Positions 991 through 25,691 of a DNA stretch of 49,254 nucleotides are shown one piece after another. The position numbers were made by a program, and so were the translations under genes. The DNA is taken from contig CALCCA010000209.1 in the NCBI GenBank assembly GCA_937899725.1, positions 1 through 49,254 on the forward strand, written 5' to 3'. This stretch comes from an uncultured Halomicronema sp. (GTDB lineage: Bacteria > Cyanobacteriota > Cyanobacteriia > Phormidesmidales > Phormidesmidaceae). Position 1 is the first letter of the stretch. The number at the start of each line of letters is the position of its first letter. A model generated the notes under the pieces. The model had not been told where the DNA came from. It saw only the letters and a list, made by a program, of their open reading frames with translations, and made no database searches.

Positions 991-3900
991 CTATACCTCA
1001 TTGAAGCACTGCAAATATTTAGCTTCTAATGTTTGATAGTCAACTGGGGGGCAAAAGAGATACCCTTGGCCCAAAATACAATCCATCTCCTTGAGACAGT
1101 CCATCTGAGCTTCAGTTTCGATGCCCTCAGCAATCATCACCATGTCAAAGTGATACGCCAGCGTCCTAATCGCTTGCACTAAACTCAGATGTTTCTGCCC
1201 TTTGACCATTTGCTGAATAAAAGATTGATCTACTTTCAGAACATCAATCGGGAAGCAGTGTAAATAATTTAAAGAAGAGTAGCCAGTCCCAAAATCGTCA
1301 ATACTCAGACTAATCCCTCGGTTTTTCAGCCGATGCAAAATTTTAATGGCGGCATCTGAATTGGTCATAAGGGCACTTTCAGTAATCTCTAATTTGAGAT
1401 TTTTGCCATTCAAATGAGTCAGCTGCAAAGTTTCATCAATCCGTTTGAGCAAATGCGGGTCATTAAACTGTTGAACCGATAAATTGACGCTCATAAACGT
1501 ATCAGCCGGCAGAATTTTTCGTTGTTGCCACAGCTGCATTTGGCTACAGGCTTCTTGCAGGATCCACTCGCCAATTTGCACGATCAGCCCGGTTTCTTCG
1601 GCAATGGGGATAAACTGCCCCGGCCCAATCATGCCGTGGGTCGGATGGTGCCATCGTAGTAGGGCCTCAAAGCCTTTAATTTGTTTAGACTCCAGAGAGA
1701 AAATGGGCTGATAATACACAACGAACTCATGCCGTCGCAAAGACTGATGCAAGTCAGTCTCTAACTGTAAGGAAGATCGCACCGCTAAGTGCATCTTGGG
1801 CTCAAAGAAGGCATAGCCACTACCGCTGCGTTTGGCGCGATACATCGCAATATCAGCATCGCGGAGAATATCTTCTGCCTGGGTGTAACTGGGGTTGCTG
1901 AGGACAATCCCGATACTGCAACTGCTGTAAAACTGCTGGTCTTGAATAATGAAGGAATTTTGTAGTTGCTGCTGAATGCGTCGAGCCACTTGAACCGCCG
2001 ATCGCGCATTGGGCACATCGGTGAGCAAGATAACAAATTCGTCGCCGCCGAAACGACAGACCAGATCCGTGGCTGCCACACAGCGCCGCAGGCTTTGGGC
2101 AATGGCTTTGAGCAGTTCATCACCGACCCAATGCCCAAAAGAATCGTTGACCAGTTTGAAGCGATCGCAATCGACAAAGAAGACGGCAAATTTAGAATTT
2201 TCTGCCCGGTGGGGCTGCGCGATTAGCTCAGCCAAAATTGACTCTAGGGAGGCGCGATTGGGCAGCCCCGTCAACTTGTCATGCAGAGCCTGATAATGCA
2301 ACTTGTCTTGAGCCTGACGCCGTTCAGAAATTTCTTGCACTAGATTGAGGTTGGTTCTCTCTAATTCTTTCGTGCGCTGTTTGACCTCACTCTCTAGCCC
2401 TTCATTTAGCAATCGCAGCTGTAGCTCAAATCCTTTACGGTGGGTGATGTCTTCAATCAACACCAAAAAAAAGCGCCGCTCATCCTCTAGCAAAGGGCTG
2501 GGCTGAGCAATGCCCTCTAGAACCTGGAAACGCAGCTCGAACCAAGTTGCCCCCTGTTGGCATTCGATCGGCGTGATGGCAATGCCTTGCAAAAGATTCT
2601 GAATAATGGCTTGAAACCGGGCGCGCTCCAGCCACCGAGGCACTAATGTCTGCGTCAACCGCGCCCCCAACTCCATCTCTAAGTAGCGCGTCGCTAACGA
2701 ATTGCAAAACCATACCTGGTCGCGGTCATCGACGGCCAGCATGCCAATGGGGACACTTTCAGAAATCGCCGATTGCGTCGCCTCGGCCCAGCCTAAAGCA
2801 TTCGCTAAAAAGCCTAATTTTTGGACTTCGTTGCCCAAATCTTTCGGAATGGCCCGAGAGGAAGCCGGGCCTAGGGTGAGCTTGGCTTGACTGTGGTGAT
2901 AATGCTGCCAGAGGTCTTCTAACAGCTTTTGGAGGGCGAGATTGGCTCTTAACTGCTGGCTAAAGATGGCGCTGATGCCGGTGATGCCCACGAGCAAAAA
3001 TGGCGGCATCCTCGGCAGTAAATAGTCGCCTCGAAACAGCACCACACTCAGACATAACCAGCCCATTAAACTGCCACTCACCATGAGTAGCTGCCACCGC
3101 AAGGGTCGGCCAATGATGAAATAGCTCACCCCTGGCATGGCGACCAACAACAGCACCCACAGCCCAGGGGCTGAGATCGGCTGCAGATAATGCTGCTGCA
3201 GCAAGTTATCGAGAATGGCCGCTTGCATCACCACGCCACCAGCGGGGGGATTTTGATCAAAGGGGGTCAGCAGAGCATCGATGCCCGTGGCGGTCATGCC
3301 CACAATGACGATTTTCTCTTCAAAGACCGTGGGTGAGATGCGGCCCGCAATGACGTCATTTAAAGAATATTGAGGCAGCGTATGGGTCGAGCCCGGCCAA
3401 TTAATCCACAGCGGTTGGTCAAGCGGGGGCAGCGTCACGGGCGCTTGAGTGAGTGAGTAAACCTCGGCCAAAGTCATGCCAAAGGCCGTCTCACTAGCGA
3501 CCAAAGGTTCGACCGTATGAACCAAACCATCGCTGGCGACCTGCTTGCGCACATGCCCCGTGGCGATCGCCGCTGAGCGCAAGGTGTGGGTAGCCACTAG
3601 TGGCCGCCCCCGTTCATCGGTGCCAGTGGCAAGCACCACATTGCCCGCCGCAGCGATCGCTGCGGCCAACGCTGGGTCAGCTGGGCTCGGCTCGGCAAAC
3701 AGCAGATTGAAGCCAATCACCCGCGGGCGCGACACCGCTAACCGGTTGAGTAGCTGTGTATAGACCTCTCGCGGCAGCGGAAACTGGCCTAACTCTGAGA
3801 ACGTGGCATCATCGATCGCCACTAAGACCACACGACTATCCCAAGGGCGTTCGCCGCGGCTTTGAAACAACCAGCGATAGCTCGCATTCTCCAAATCGTC

Positions 3901-4002
3901 TAGCACTCCGAGCTGACTGAGCACCAAAATAATCAGCGAGGCCAGCACACCCGGCAAAAACCGCCAGCGATTTTTCAAGAGATTAGAGAAGCGGAACGTC
4001 AT
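991..4002 (-). CDS. CHASE2-PAS-GGDEF-EAL cyclic-di-GMP enzyme
   Basis: A 1003-residue inner-membrane signalling protein that should make or break cyclic-di-GMP. Order: N-terminal TM (about 14-33), periplasmic CHASE2 sensor (about 36-285), three closely spaced TM helices (about 283-360), PAS region (about 410-530), a short coiled coil, GGDEF and EAL. The GGDEF signature is intact at residues 652-656. The inhibitory RxxD site just before it is missing (AATD), so product inhibition may be weak. EAL is at 779-781, followed by intact NLSVQQF, EITES, DDFGTGYSS, KVDQSF and EGIET motifs, so the phosphodiesterase half looks competent. Its start overlaps the end of the upstream FecR gene by 20 bases, suggesting translational coupling. 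Which activity dominates cannot be read from the sequence. Confidence 0.93.
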   Translation of the reverse strand: MTFRFSNLLKNRWRFLPGVLASLIILVLSQLGVLDDLENASYRWLFQSRGERPWDSRVVLVAIDDATFSELGQFPLPREVYTQLLNRLAVSRPRVIGFNLLFAEPSPADPALAAAIAAAGNVVLATGTDERGRPLVATHTLRSAAIATGHVRKQVASDGLVHTVEPLVASETAFGMTLAEVYSLTQAPVTLPPLDQPLWINWPGSTHTLPQYSLNDVIAGRISPTVFEEKIVIVGMTATGIDALLTPFDQNPPAGGVVMQAAILDNLLQQHYLQPISAPGLWVLLLVAMPGVSYFIIGRPLRWQLLMVSGSLMGWLCLSVVLFRGDYLLPRMPPFLLVGITGISAIFSQQLRANLALQKLLEDLWQHYHHSQAKLTLGPASSRAIPKDLGNEVQKLGFLANALGWAEATQSAISESVPIGMLAVDDRDQVWFCNSLATRYLEMELGARLTQTLVPRWLERARFQAIIQNLLQGIAITPIECQQGATWFELRFQVLEGIAQPSPLLEDERRFFLVLIEDITHRKGFELQLRLLNEGLESEVKQRTKELERTNLNLVQEISERRQAQDKLHYQALHDKLTGLPNRASLESILAELIAQPHRAENSKFAVFFVDCDRFKLVNDSFGHWVGDELLKAIAQSLRRCVAATDLVCRFGGDEFVILLTDVPNARSAVQVARRIQQQLQNSFIIQDQQFYSSCSIGIVLSNPSYTQAEDILRDADIAMYRAKRSGSGYAFFEPKMHLAVRSSLQLETDLHQSLRRHEFVVYYQPIFSLESKQIKGFEALLRWHHPTHGMIGPGQFIPIAEETGLIVQIGEWILQEACSQMQLWQQRKILPADTFMSVNLSVQQFNDPHLLKRIDETLQLTHLNGKNLKLEITESALMTNSDAAIKILHRLKNRGISLSIDDFGTGYSSLNYLHCFPIDVLKVDQSFIQQMVKGQKHLSLVQAIRTLAYHFDMVMIAEGIETEAQMDCLKEMDCILGQGYLFCPPVDYQTLEAKYLQCFNEV

Positions 4003-4840
4003 ACACGGCCTCGTTGCCCAGCGGTGTGACTACTCTGACCTGAATGCCCACACCATAGCGAGCCGGTACTTCATATTCAAACTCGCCGGCCTCGTTAACG
4101 GTCTGCAATTCGTCTTCCACATACACCTGGTTAATCGGATCAATGCGCCCGCGCAATAGCAAATACCGCAGACTATTGCGAACGACAATCTCAACTTGGG
4201 AATCAAATTCAGGGACGTCGGGAATCGGCGTCGGTGCTAAAGGCGGCTCACCGGGGCGAATCAGCGTTTGAAAGCCCCCCGGTACAGTCACCGTCTCGGT
4301 CTGTGCGGCGGCATACACTTCACCCGTTTCGGTGGCAATGCCCATCCGCTGGTCATCCGGATCAACCAGTACCCCAAACTCAGTGCCTCGGACGCCACTG
4401 ACCCCCGAGGGCGTTTGGATTTCTAACTCAGAGCCCTCGTGGGTAAAACGGCGAAGATTCAGGCTAACGCCCCCCTGAGAGACATAAAGGCGAGTGATGT
4501 AACCGTTATCGTCGGCAAACTCTAGCCCCCGCACCTCAAGCTCTGTATTATTTTGCATGGTAATCGTGCCGACCCCGGTATCCAAAATCAGCGTGCTAGA
4601 GGCGTCATTGCCAGTGCGCACCCCATCGCCCACCGCCGTCAGTCGATCGCCAATGGCCGCCGCTCGACTACCCGTTGGGCTCAGATACCGCACATCACCC
4701 GCCATTTCTTGAATTGATAGCCAGCGCTCGATGCGCACATCAATGGACTGTTGGGCCTGTAGCTGCGGTGCCAAGACGAGCCACCAGCTGCTCACGACCA
4801 TAGCAACTAGGATAAGAACTCTTCTTTGGGTCTTAGACAT
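3983..4840 (-). CDS. secreted FecR-domain protein
   Basis: A 285-residue exported protein. It has a signal peptide or TM anchor at about 7-29 (ending LQAQQ) and then a FecR domain: a LysM-free beta-rich core with the motif GDGVRTGNDASS and the family hallmark SGVRGTEFGV. A proline-rich linker (about 205-215) and a beta-sandwich tail follow. FecR domains in other bacteria sense or transmit envelope signals. In cyanobacteria they commonly sit beside CHASE2 proteins, as here. The stop overlaps the start of the CHASE2-GGDEF-EAL gene by 20 bases, so both are made from one message. I infer that FecR in the periplasm supplies input to the CHASE2 sensor; this is not shown by the sequence. Confidence 0.9.
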   Translation of the reverse strand: MSKTQRRVLILVAMVVSSWWLVLAPQLQAQQSIDVRIERWLSIQEMAGDVRYLSPTGSRAAAIGDRLTAVGDGVRTGNDASSTLILDTGVGTITMQNNTELEVRGLEFADDNGYITRLYVSQGGVSLNLRRFTHEGSELEIQTPSGVSGVRGTEFGVLVDPDDQRMGIATETGEVYAAAQTETVTVPGGFQTLIRPGEPPLAPTPIPDVPEFDSQVEIVVRNSLRYLLLRGRIDPINQVYVEDELQTVNEAGEFEYEVPARYGVGIQVRVVTPLGNEAVYDVPLL

Positions 4841-23531: not shown

Positions 23532-24320
23532 TTACTGCGCGGCTTGCACACGGACAAGGGCTTCCGACAAAAAGTCGGCAGGTACTGCGCCTGGAATCAG
23601 CACGTCATTCATGATGAACGTCGGCGTACTGCTGAGCTGTAGCTCTTGGGCGAGGGCCAAATCGCGAGCGACAGCTTTTTTCGCGTCTTCACTGGCGCGA
23701 TCGCTGTTGAACTGATCGAGGTCTAAGTCCAAATCACGGGCAATTCTCAGGTAGAGTCCCTCGCCCAGATTGGGCTGGTTCTCAAAGAGAGCATCGTGGT
23801 AGGCCCAGAATTGACCCTGCTGTCCGGCGGCCCAAGAGGCCAGCGCGGCGGGCAGTGCCTCAGGGTGAATGTTGGTCAGGGGAAAGTTTTTCAAGACAAA
23901 GAGCACATCGTTGTCATGCTCAGCGAGAAACTCATCAATGTGGCCGGTGGCCTGGTTGCAGAACCCGCACTGATAGTCAGAAAATTTCAGCAGGACCACC
24001 GTAGCGTCAGGGTTACCCAGCGTCGGAGAATCACCTACCAAAATTTCTCGACTCAGGTCATCGACAACTTCCGTCACCAAGACTTGATGTGCTTCCTGGT
24101 TGGCAGGGGGCGCGGCTACGGGAGTCGGCGTTGCGGTCGGTGCTTCAGCGTCTAAAGGGGCCGTTGAGTTGCCACCCAGAGAAGTCGTCAATGAAATCAA
24201 AAGTGCTGCACCAACAGCACCGAAGAAGCCAATGCCCAACCATAGCGGCCAGTTTGTGGCTTTGGCTTTGGCTGAGTTAGAAGACTGCTCGGCTGGAATC
24301 TTAGGGGAAGAATCACTCAT
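23532..24320 (-). CDS. membrane-anchored DsbA-like thiol oxidoreductase
   Basis: 262 residues. A cytoplasmic Ser/Lys-rich tail precedes a TM helix (about 26-46), then a Pro/Ala linker and a thioredoxin-fold domain with an inserted helical part (about 95-262). The active site is CGFC at residues 118-121 in KFSDYQCGFCNQ, and the cis-proline loop is STPTF. This is the layout of BdbD/DsbA-like proteins that oxidise cysteines outside the cytoplasm. In cyanobacteria such oxidation can also serve the thylakoid lumen. ATG 24320 is preceded by four phased direct repeats, a likely control site. No VKOR/DsbB partner is in the window. It is divergent from a serine peptidase. Confidence 0.92.
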   Translation of the reverse strand: MSDSSPKIPAEQSSNSAKAKATNWPLWLGIGFFGAVGAALLISLTTSLGGNSTAPLDAEAPTATPTPVAAPPANQEAHQVLVTEVVDDLSREILVGDSPTLGNPDATVVLLKFSDYQCGFCNQATGHIDEFLAEHDNDVLFVLKNFPLTNIHPEALPAALASWAAGQQGQFWAYHDALFENQPNLGEGLYLRIARDLDLDLDQFNSDRASEDAKKAVARDLALAQELQLSSTPTFIMNDVLIPGAVPADFLSEALVRVQAAQ

Positions 24321-24357
24321 GACTGAATCAAAGGGTGGCGGTAAAGAATGCGCTCAA

Positions 24358-24418
24358 TTTATCTCAACAATCTGAGAACACCCTGAGAGAGCACAAAAAT
24401 CTGAGAAGACTCTGAGAA
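24358..24418 (-). promoter_or_regulatory. four phased direct repeats upstream of the DsbA-like gene
   Basis: CTGAGA(A/G) occurs on the plus strand at 24372, 24383, 24401 and 24412. This gives two pairs, each with an 11-base period (7-bp unit, 4-bp gap), separated by 18 bases. On the gene's strand it reads TTCTCAG-N4-TTCTCAG twice, the last unit being CTCTCAG. One-turn tandem repeats are the usual shape of OmpR/PhoB-family response-regulator boxes. A weak -10, GATAAA (24358-24363), would place the near pair across the -35 region, as for an activator. Confidence 0.5.
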
Positions 24419-24728
24419 CAACTAGAGAATTGAGACTAACCCATTGGGGGGCTCTATTACCCGGCCCGGATGAGCGCATTCACCATGGCAGCGCCCGGCT
24501 CTGACGCCGCTCCTCAAAGCAGCCGATGTTTTGTCAGGCGGGGGCCGTGTCCTCCCCAGCGATCGCAACCGGATTTTAGCGCCAGTCAACCGTTCTCTGG
24601 GCGGTGTCTAATGGGAGGCATGGTGATCAGAGAGCAACTGAAATTCCAGACTTTAAGGAAATTAGGGCACCTTGAGTGAAGAGATAAGTAGCTTGGCTGC
24701 TTGTGAACGTTTTGCATGAGGTTGCTGT

Positions 24729-25691
24729 ATGGCGTGGCGTTGGTTTTCTCTCACCGGTTTAGGGCTGGCGACAGTAATTATAAGCGGGTCGGGCCTGGCC
24801 CCCGGCTTCACTCAGCAGCTTCATGAAGTCACCTTAGAGCCCTTGACCCTCAGCGCCTCAGAGGTGGGGGGAACCGCCTACGTGCCCGCCGCCATTGCGA
24901 CCTCCCCCCGGCCAATCGATGGGCCGCTGCGGGCTGTGGTGAATGAAGACGATCGCACCCCCGTCTTGAGTGCTAGCTATCCTTGGTCAGCCATTGGGCG
25001 GGTCGATTGGGTCGCCCCGGACGGTGTCACCGTGCTGGGCGCTTGTACGGGAACGCTGATTGGGCCACAGCTGGTACTCACCAATGCCCACTGTCTAATT
25101 GACCCCGAGAGTGATCTGCCCACGACCCATGCAATCACCTTTCGCCCCAATGTGATTCAGGGCGAGTCTGAGGCCGTGGCGACGGTCATCTCTTACGAAT
25201 ATGGCAGCAGCCCGTTTACCGGCGATGTCTCCGACGACTGGGCACTGTTAACCCTAGACGAGCCTTTGGGCGAGACCTTTGGCTTTTTGGGCTGGCGTCA
25301 TGTTGACTTTGTCGATGCCGACACGCTGGCTGAGATGGATAGCCAAATCAGCGTGGTCGGCTACTCAGCAGATTTTCCCCCAGCGACGCTGAGCGGGTTG
25401 GGCGAGCCCGGCGAAACCGCTGGGCTCAGCGATCGCTGCAGCGTGATTACGGAGCTAGAAGCGGGGGATTTTGCCGGGAGCTTAATTCACACCTGTGACA
25501 CCAACCCCGGCGCATCGGGAGCCCCTCTATTTGCGTTGTTTGATGACGGCGACTACTACATCTTGGGGCTACACGCTGGCAGCGTGACCCTGCTTGAAAA
25601 TGTGACCCTGCCCACCGGTGAGCAAACCGATGTGTTGAATCGCGGCATTCCCGTATCGCGCTGGGCCGCCAGAGCCGCCGCCCTGCGTTAG
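24729..25691 (+). CDS. secreted trypsin-like (V8-type) serine peptidase
   Basis: 320 residues with a signal peptide (about 1-29), a propeptide-like stretch (about 30-85) and a chymotrypsin-fold domain. The catalytic triad is visible: His 121 in LTNAHC, Asp 170 in VSDDWALL, and Ser 263 in NPGASGAPLF. This resembles glutamyl endopeptidase / V8-type enzymes (family S1B) rather than HtrA, as no PDZ domain follows. It has several Cys (CTGTL, CHC-like AHC, DRCS, HTCD) that could form disulfides. It is divergent from the DsbA-like gene with a 408-base shared upstream region. Substrate unknown. Confidence 0.88.
   Translation: MAWRWFSLTGLGLATVIISGSGLAPGFTQQLHEVTLEPLTLSASEVGGTAYVPAAIATSPRPIDGPLRAVVNEDDRTPVLSASYPWSAIGRVDWVAPDGVTVLGACTGTLIGPQLVLTNAHCLIDPESDLPTTHAITFRPNVIQGESEAVATVISYEYGSSPFTGDVSDDWALLTLDEPLGETFGFLGWRHVDFVDADTLAEMDSQISVVGYSADFPPATLSGLGEPGETAGLSDRCSVITELEAGDFAGSLIHTCDTNPGASGAPLFALFDDGDYYILGLHAGSVTLLENVTLPTGEQTDVLNRGIPVSRWAARAAALR

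Follow-up and report, generated by a model that had tools for sequence, protein, structure and literature searches.

Upstream of a dsbA-like gene in an uncultured Halomicronema sp., a series of short direct repeats precedes a possible promoter, which raises the question of whether they form a regulatory site and, if so, which protein reads it, with what effect and at which other genes. The first-pass annotation of this DNA predicted that extracytoplasmic disulfide formation is switched on there by a two-component system. We followed this up in the whole contig stretch of 49,254 nucleotides (referred to as the window), in the genome to which it belongs and in related cyanobacterial genomes.

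Repeat array upstream of the dsbA-like gene

The four CTGAGAA-like 7-mers described at 24372, 24383, 24401 and 24412, in two pairs with an 11-base period, were found in the sequence as claimed. The units at 24372, 24401 and 24412 read CTGAGAA and the unit at 24383 reads CTGAGAG, each pair having an 11-bp period. Gene and array comprise the following features:

23532..24320, minus strand: dsbA-like gene, 262 aa, with a hydrophobic N-terminal segment followed by a DsbA/Thioredoxin_4 domain with C118-x-x-C121 (Pfam Thioredoxin_4 and DSBA)
24356..24361, minus strand: -10-like hexamer TAAATT, 10 bp after the proximal repeat (0-mismatch match G000:C209:24356-24386)
24372..24389, minus strand: proximal pair CTCTCAG-GGTG-TTCTCAG (units 24372-24378 and 24383-24389), identical in the close relative G002
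24401..24418, minus strand: distal pair TTCTCAG-AGTC-TTCTCAG (units 24401-24407 and 24412-24418), present in G002
24423..24429, minus strand: degenerate fifth unit TTCTCTA (plus strand TAGAGAA, 5/7), continuing the distal pair at the same 11-bp spacing; 24412-24429 matches with 2 mismatches

On the minus strand the order is TTCTCTA-GTTG-TTCTCAG-AGTC-TTCTCAG-ATTTTTGTGCT-CTCTCAG-GGTG-TTCTCAG-ATTGTTGAGA-TAAATT, and the array including the -10 stops 35 bp short of the ATG of the dsbA-like gene. The box can be written as TTCTCAG-N4-TTCTCAG-N10-TANNNT, that is, two direct repeats with an 11-bp period and then a -10 hexamer. A weak -10 had been placed at 24358-24363, with the near pair overlapping the -35 region. 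The hexamer is present and the proximal pair covers the -35 position, where there is no -35 consensus, but the register is TAAATT at 24361-24356 and thus two bases off. A divergent gene for a trypsin-like protease (Trypsin_2; 24729-25691, plus strand) lies about 300 bp from the array.

Within the window, 24401-24418 is the sole 0-mismatch match of CTGAGAA-N4-CTGAGAA; with up to 3 mismatches there are 10 matches, a number reached in 0 of 100 shuffles (mean 3.79). The 7-mer alone is not enriched in the window (7 seen, 6.00 expected), and among exact TCTCAG pairs with gaps of 0-30 in the whole genome the 11-bp period is not preferred (4/48, two of them from the dsbA array). Bare pairs outnumber the reversed pattern (113 vs 45), but this was set aside as indistinguishable from word frequency; the excess occurs in many genomes, with and without the kinase described below. 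Lacking enrichment by spacing, bare 7-mers and bare pairs were dropped as evidence. As the bare 7-mer is at chance level and the 11-bp period is not preferred, the weight rests on the pair in combination with the -10 and on conservation.

A dsbA-like homologue was found in 48 of the 59 genomes searched, and C118, C121 and T232-P233 are invariant in 17 aligned homologues. For the upstream survey, the 30 best matches were used, no genome contributing more than one and the window's gene being among them, and the region scored ran from -350 to +160 relative to the first in-frame start. The box, at no less than 14 of 17 defined positions, is on the gene strand in six of these 30 regions (the window genome, G002, G003 and G005 of the same genus, and G015 and G024 of other genera), while 0/30 regions reach 14/17 on the opposite strand. 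The expected conservation upstream of orthologs was thereby found in part: it extends to these six regions, among them those of four of the six genomes of the window's genus, but the box is absent from the other 24 regions (scores 8-12), G001 and G004 of the same genus among them. With the box at 6/30 regions, dsbA is a lineage-limited predicted target. Between the window and G002, identity is 91% in the array (58 columns) and 98% from the array end to the ATG (51 columns), compared to 79% in the 300 bp upstream of the array. Of the five changes in the G002 array, four affect linkers or the spacer and the fifth the first base of a unit; in the distal pair, one unit base and one linker base differ.

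Box, promoter and a histidine kinase operon across genomes

Since the -10-like hexamer follows the last unit by 10 bp in conserved cases, the 59 genomes were searched with TCTCA-N5-TTCTCAG-N10-TANNNT, allowing up to one mismatch. This gave 71 matches versus 11 for the reversed pattern, with 62 versus 6 in the window's family (36 genomes) and 9 versus 5 elsewhere (23 genomes). The exact core TCAG-N4-TTCTCAG-N10-TANNNT occurs at only three sites in the window's 7-Mb genome, preceding the dsbA-like gene, a DUF4079 gene and a histidine-kinase/response-regulator operon, respectively. In seven genomes searched, the core with up to one mismatch was found 38 times in forward and 6 times in reversed form, and an exact core box is located upstream of the kinase in all seven. 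A search of 388 genomes of the class gave 116 exact core matches versus 12 reversed, distributed as 59 versus 2 in the window's family (60 genomes) and 57 versus 10 elsewhere, and 84 genomes have at least one.

In the window genome (contig C165), the kinase gene and the gene of a 224-aa regulator, the latter at about 3854-4540, are 3 bp apart. The kinase was found at 45 places in 44 of the 59 genomes, and 30 of these 45 places were covered by the upstream survey, in which the -10 hexamer was left out of the repeat scan. A repeat pair with at least 11/14 matching positions is present in 24/30 regions, and in 24/24 of them TANNNT stands at exactly 10 bp; at gaps of 3-19, it occurs elsewhere only at 15 and 17, once each. 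Six of the 30 regions have no repeat at 11/14. Of shuffled regions, 14/600 reach 11/14, one of these with TANNNT at 10 bp. A match to an NblR-like regulator adjoins the kinase on the same contig in 26/30 genomes, the exceptions being G014, G021, G022 and G051. As the operon carries the same box as the dsbA-like gene, it looks autoregulated.

These 11-bp repeats, placed 10 bp from the -10 in every repeat-bearing kinase region, support the proposal of the first-pass annotation that the repeats form a site for an OmpR/PhoB-type regulator. The suggested link to a two-component system likewise gains weight, in that the same box precedes a kinase operon with a Trans_reg_C regulator and box numbers follow the kinase. 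The 44 genomes with the kinase have a mean of 1.55 boxes and the 15 without it a mean of 0.20 (Mann-Whitney p 1e-4, which is optimistic because the genomes are related); p is 0.004 within the family and 0.06 outside. G018, G025 and G052 have one box each with the kinase absent at E 1e-60, and G018 and G025 contain a second NblR-like regulator.

On the opposite strand, 13/30 kinase upstream regions also reach at least 11/14, so that the score alone cannot separate the strands. Most of these matches are a second box, as judged from the hexamer: T-N4-T stands at 10 bp in 11/13, mostly as TTNAAT, and TANNNT in none. A divergent gene was recognised at 17 kinase loci, coding for an ArsS-like protein at 15 and a VTT-domain protein at two. 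Boxes can stand back to back there (e.g. L162, L165 and L176), with TANNNT for the kinase, mostly TTNAAT for the divergent ArsS-like gene and each hexamer 10 bp from its own repeat.

A scan of named organisms for the kinase yielded three clear cyanobacterial relatives, in Leptolyngbyaceae RU_5_1, Xenococcus PCC 7305 and Rivularia sp., while the other 77 loci are mostly kinases of other phyla. At these three kinase loci the full box is not clean.

Candidate regulator, its sensor kinase and proposed mode of action

The box has two features of OmpR/PhoB-type promoters, namely tandem direct repeats of about 11 bp and a fixed place before the -10 instead of a -35. The geometry resembles that of the pho box of PhoB and other OmpR/PhoB direct repeats, where 11-bp tandem repeats lie over the -35 region about 10 bp before the -10, and in PhoB-type activation the pho box is positioned 10 bp upstream of the -10. 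The regulator resembles these systems in its Response_reg and Trans_reg_C (OmpR-type) domains. Differences are the repeat TTCTCAG and other target genes, the present box being a predicted site. We consider it probable that a response regulator of the OmpR/PhoB type binds to the repeats and thereby most likely activates the dsbA-like gene; the 224-aa protein of contig C165 is the most likely candidate. The proximal pair would be bound by one regulator dimer and the distal pair probably by another. The dimer bound 10 bp upstream of the -10 would take the place of a -35 and, when phosphorylated, most likely activate transcription as PhoB does at pho boxes. Activation is favoured because a -35 consensus is lacking and the 10-bp distance is that of PhoB-type activation. 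The gene of the regulator follows directly on that of the histidine kinase, for which an extracytoplasmic sensor is predicted: the sensor part was modelled with a mean pLDDT of 88, and its model resembles the extracellular PAS domain of WalK in Foldseek (4ywz, E 7.1e-5), with CusS as a weaker match (E 0.015). These matches point to a PAS-like fold and do not tell the ligand.

The regulator is classed by sequence as OmpR-type and related to, yet distinct from, NblR. Its best NCBIfam model is the NblR model NF045914 and the DNA-binding regions are similar, but the regulators of G009 and of the window genome (G000) score 284.8-290 bits against a cut-off of 300, and the window genome has a separate true NblR with 349.6 bits compared to 290.0 for its operon regulator. 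True NblR, judged from two complete proteins, has 229-231 aa and 3-4 cysteines and is 47-52% identical to the regulator, whereas the regulators of the window genome and G009 have 224 aa and a single cysteine at position 65. The same length and single Cys65 are given for Rre28 (Sll0396) of Synechocystis PCC 6803 in the accessible part of PMC4361706, and the C-terminus GYVLRD in its cloning primer equals that of the G009 regulator, the window genome's ending with GYVLKD; this match is one of length, Cys65 and C-terminus. In the accessible part of PMC2491639, sll0396 is called the nblR orthologue. No target for Rre28/Sll0396 is named in the portions of text examined, and a literature search covering few subscription journals gave no assigned target for the regulator. 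RppA of Synechocystis is likewise a cyanobacterial OmpR-type regulator, but its motif AAMAWCTCYYWCCCC, as given in the accessible part of PMC13421787, is unlike the present box.

The Mn-sensing ManS/ManR system of Synechocystis also combines a kinase with an extracytoplasmic sensor and an OmpR-type regulator. ManS was considered because the Xenococcus kinase adjoins a cobS-like gene (label by eye). Both regulator and transporter tests spoke against this identity. ManR has 234 aa with C64, C154 and C230 and a primer end YCFEAN (accessible part of PMC4361706), in contrast to 224 aa and a single C65. At ZnuA/MntC and Nramp loci, which were scanned to 1500 bp beyond the match so that distant operon starts are missed, 0/39 have a box of at least 14/17 (best 13/17), and a Mn-uptake regulon was rejected.

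Repression is an unlikely alternative, in which the box would be an operator overlapping the promoter and the bound regulator would shut off dsbA. The proximal pair spans the -35 position, and ManR is reported as a repressor of OmpR type in Synechocystis (accessible part of PMC7020235), but the constant distance to the -10 together with the missing -35 consensus fits activation better, as an operator need not keep one distance. It is rather improbable that a true OmpR-type site is read by another protein, true NblR or a further paralogue, alone or in competition, with the kinase operon as one target. True NblR might read a similar site, since its C-terminal region is nearly identical to that of the operon regulator in three genomes compared, and an NF045914 match above the cut-off exists in 50/59 genomes. 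However, G016 and G035, both of one genus, keep true NblR while kinase, second regulator and box are all absent, and the box is on the kinase operon's own promoter in 24/30 loci. Despite the similar DNA-binding region, the pattern in G016 and G035 disfavours NblR as the sole reader. That the dsbA repeats are a functionless chance cluster is highly improbable: bare 7-mers and pairs are not enriched and most dsbA upstream regions lack the box, but where found it keeps to the gene strand, in G002 the DNA upstream has diverged more than array and leader, and only two other exact core boxes exist in the genome.

Candidate regulon

The list of candidates is based on 68 distinct readable sites among the matches of the TCTCA-based pattern (up to one mismatch, 59 genomes), of which 15 are inside coding frames according to our own rule. 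The downstream proteins of 50 sites were clustered, and nine families recur in at least two genomes:

exported protein, about 190 aa, no Pfam family: 5 genomes
DsbA-like protein: 4 genomes, the window's own not counted
FGE-sulfatase-like protein: 4 genomes, one genus
DUF4079 protein: 4 genomes
the kinase: 4 genomes
pyridine-nucleotide-disulfide oxidoreductase: 3 genomes
SelD-like protein: 2 genomes
thioredoxin: 2 genomes
membrane protein: 2 genomes

Further genes carrying the box, for which the first-pass annotation had suggested a scan, thus include the kinase operon, DUF4079 and other recurrent families. Weaker sites in the window genome precede genes for a DM13 protein (3 mismatches), with a two-pair layout like that of dsbA, and for a YHS protein with PCAA repeats (2 mismatches). 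Single or weaker targets are peroxiredoxin, DoxX, glutamate-cysteine ligase and a CtpA-like S41 protease. The protease gene is preceded by a one-mismatch box in G001 and G004 (L186, L188), both of which have no dsbA box. Among the 116 class-wide sites, downstream genes were read at 30; the kinase follows clearly in three, weakly in one, and a VTT protein in one. Other genes there code for NifU-like, CMD-family, FBPase, EamA and redoxin proteins, one each confirmed by Pfam and further copies assigned by eye.

The recurrent downstream genes are, by predicted function, rich in thiol, electron-transfer and exported proteins, and this little-studied two-component system seems to govern, in many cyanobacteria, a group of redox genes whose products often work outside the cytoplasm. 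This gene content points to a thiol, redox or metal stress of the periplasm or thylakoid lumen as a possible signal. In that respect the system would be Cpx-like: CpxAR of E. coli is an envelope stress system of OmpR type with dsbA as a target, but it uses another motif. The candidate regulon is new, although of the known OmpR/PhoB-type kind.

Tentatively, and with somewhat less than even confidence, we propose that cyanobacteria widely share a so far undescribed two-component response to stress in the periplasm or thylakoid lumen, in which the kinase and an Rre28-type regulator would act via TTCTCAG-N4-TTCTCAG boxes on a thiol/electron-transfer set. This set would comprise DsbA-like, DM13 and DUF4079 proteins, thioredoxin, peroxiredoxin, glutamate-cysteine ligase, ArsS, cysteine-rich PCAA-repeat and YHS proteins and the CtpA-like protease. 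If this holds, the regulator can be assigned a function, and a Cys-rich protein becomes a candidate substrate of the DsbA-like protein. For a widespread cyanobacterial regulator there are now a motif, a list of predicted targets and a candidate pair of kinase and regulator, disulfide formation would fall under this kind of control in some members of the group, and how cyanobacteria sense extracytoplasmic redox or metal damage becomes directly testable.

In Rivularia sp. (L211:7635-10389), genes for DM13, DUF4079 and the kinase are consecutive on one strand, and electrons might be relayed across the membrane by DM13 together with DUF4079. Cysteine repeats of the form PCAA(N/D/x), not found in our literature search, occur in large number in exported proteins that are encoded near a box or beside kinase and DsbA-like genes (L147:3025-3900 in the window genome, L102, L122:1720-1944 and L024:887-1171). 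Two of these proteins are fused to a YHS domain, and the group may serve as DsbA substrates or bind metal. In G013, a PCAA-repeat gene is located between the kinase gene and a DsbA-like gene without a box of its own. Finally, TTCTCAG repeats with an 11-bp period also precede an ECF sigma factor gene in the window genome (contig C146, L148:1740-2502); the gene upstream of them codes for an exported protein, labelled by eye as spondin-like.
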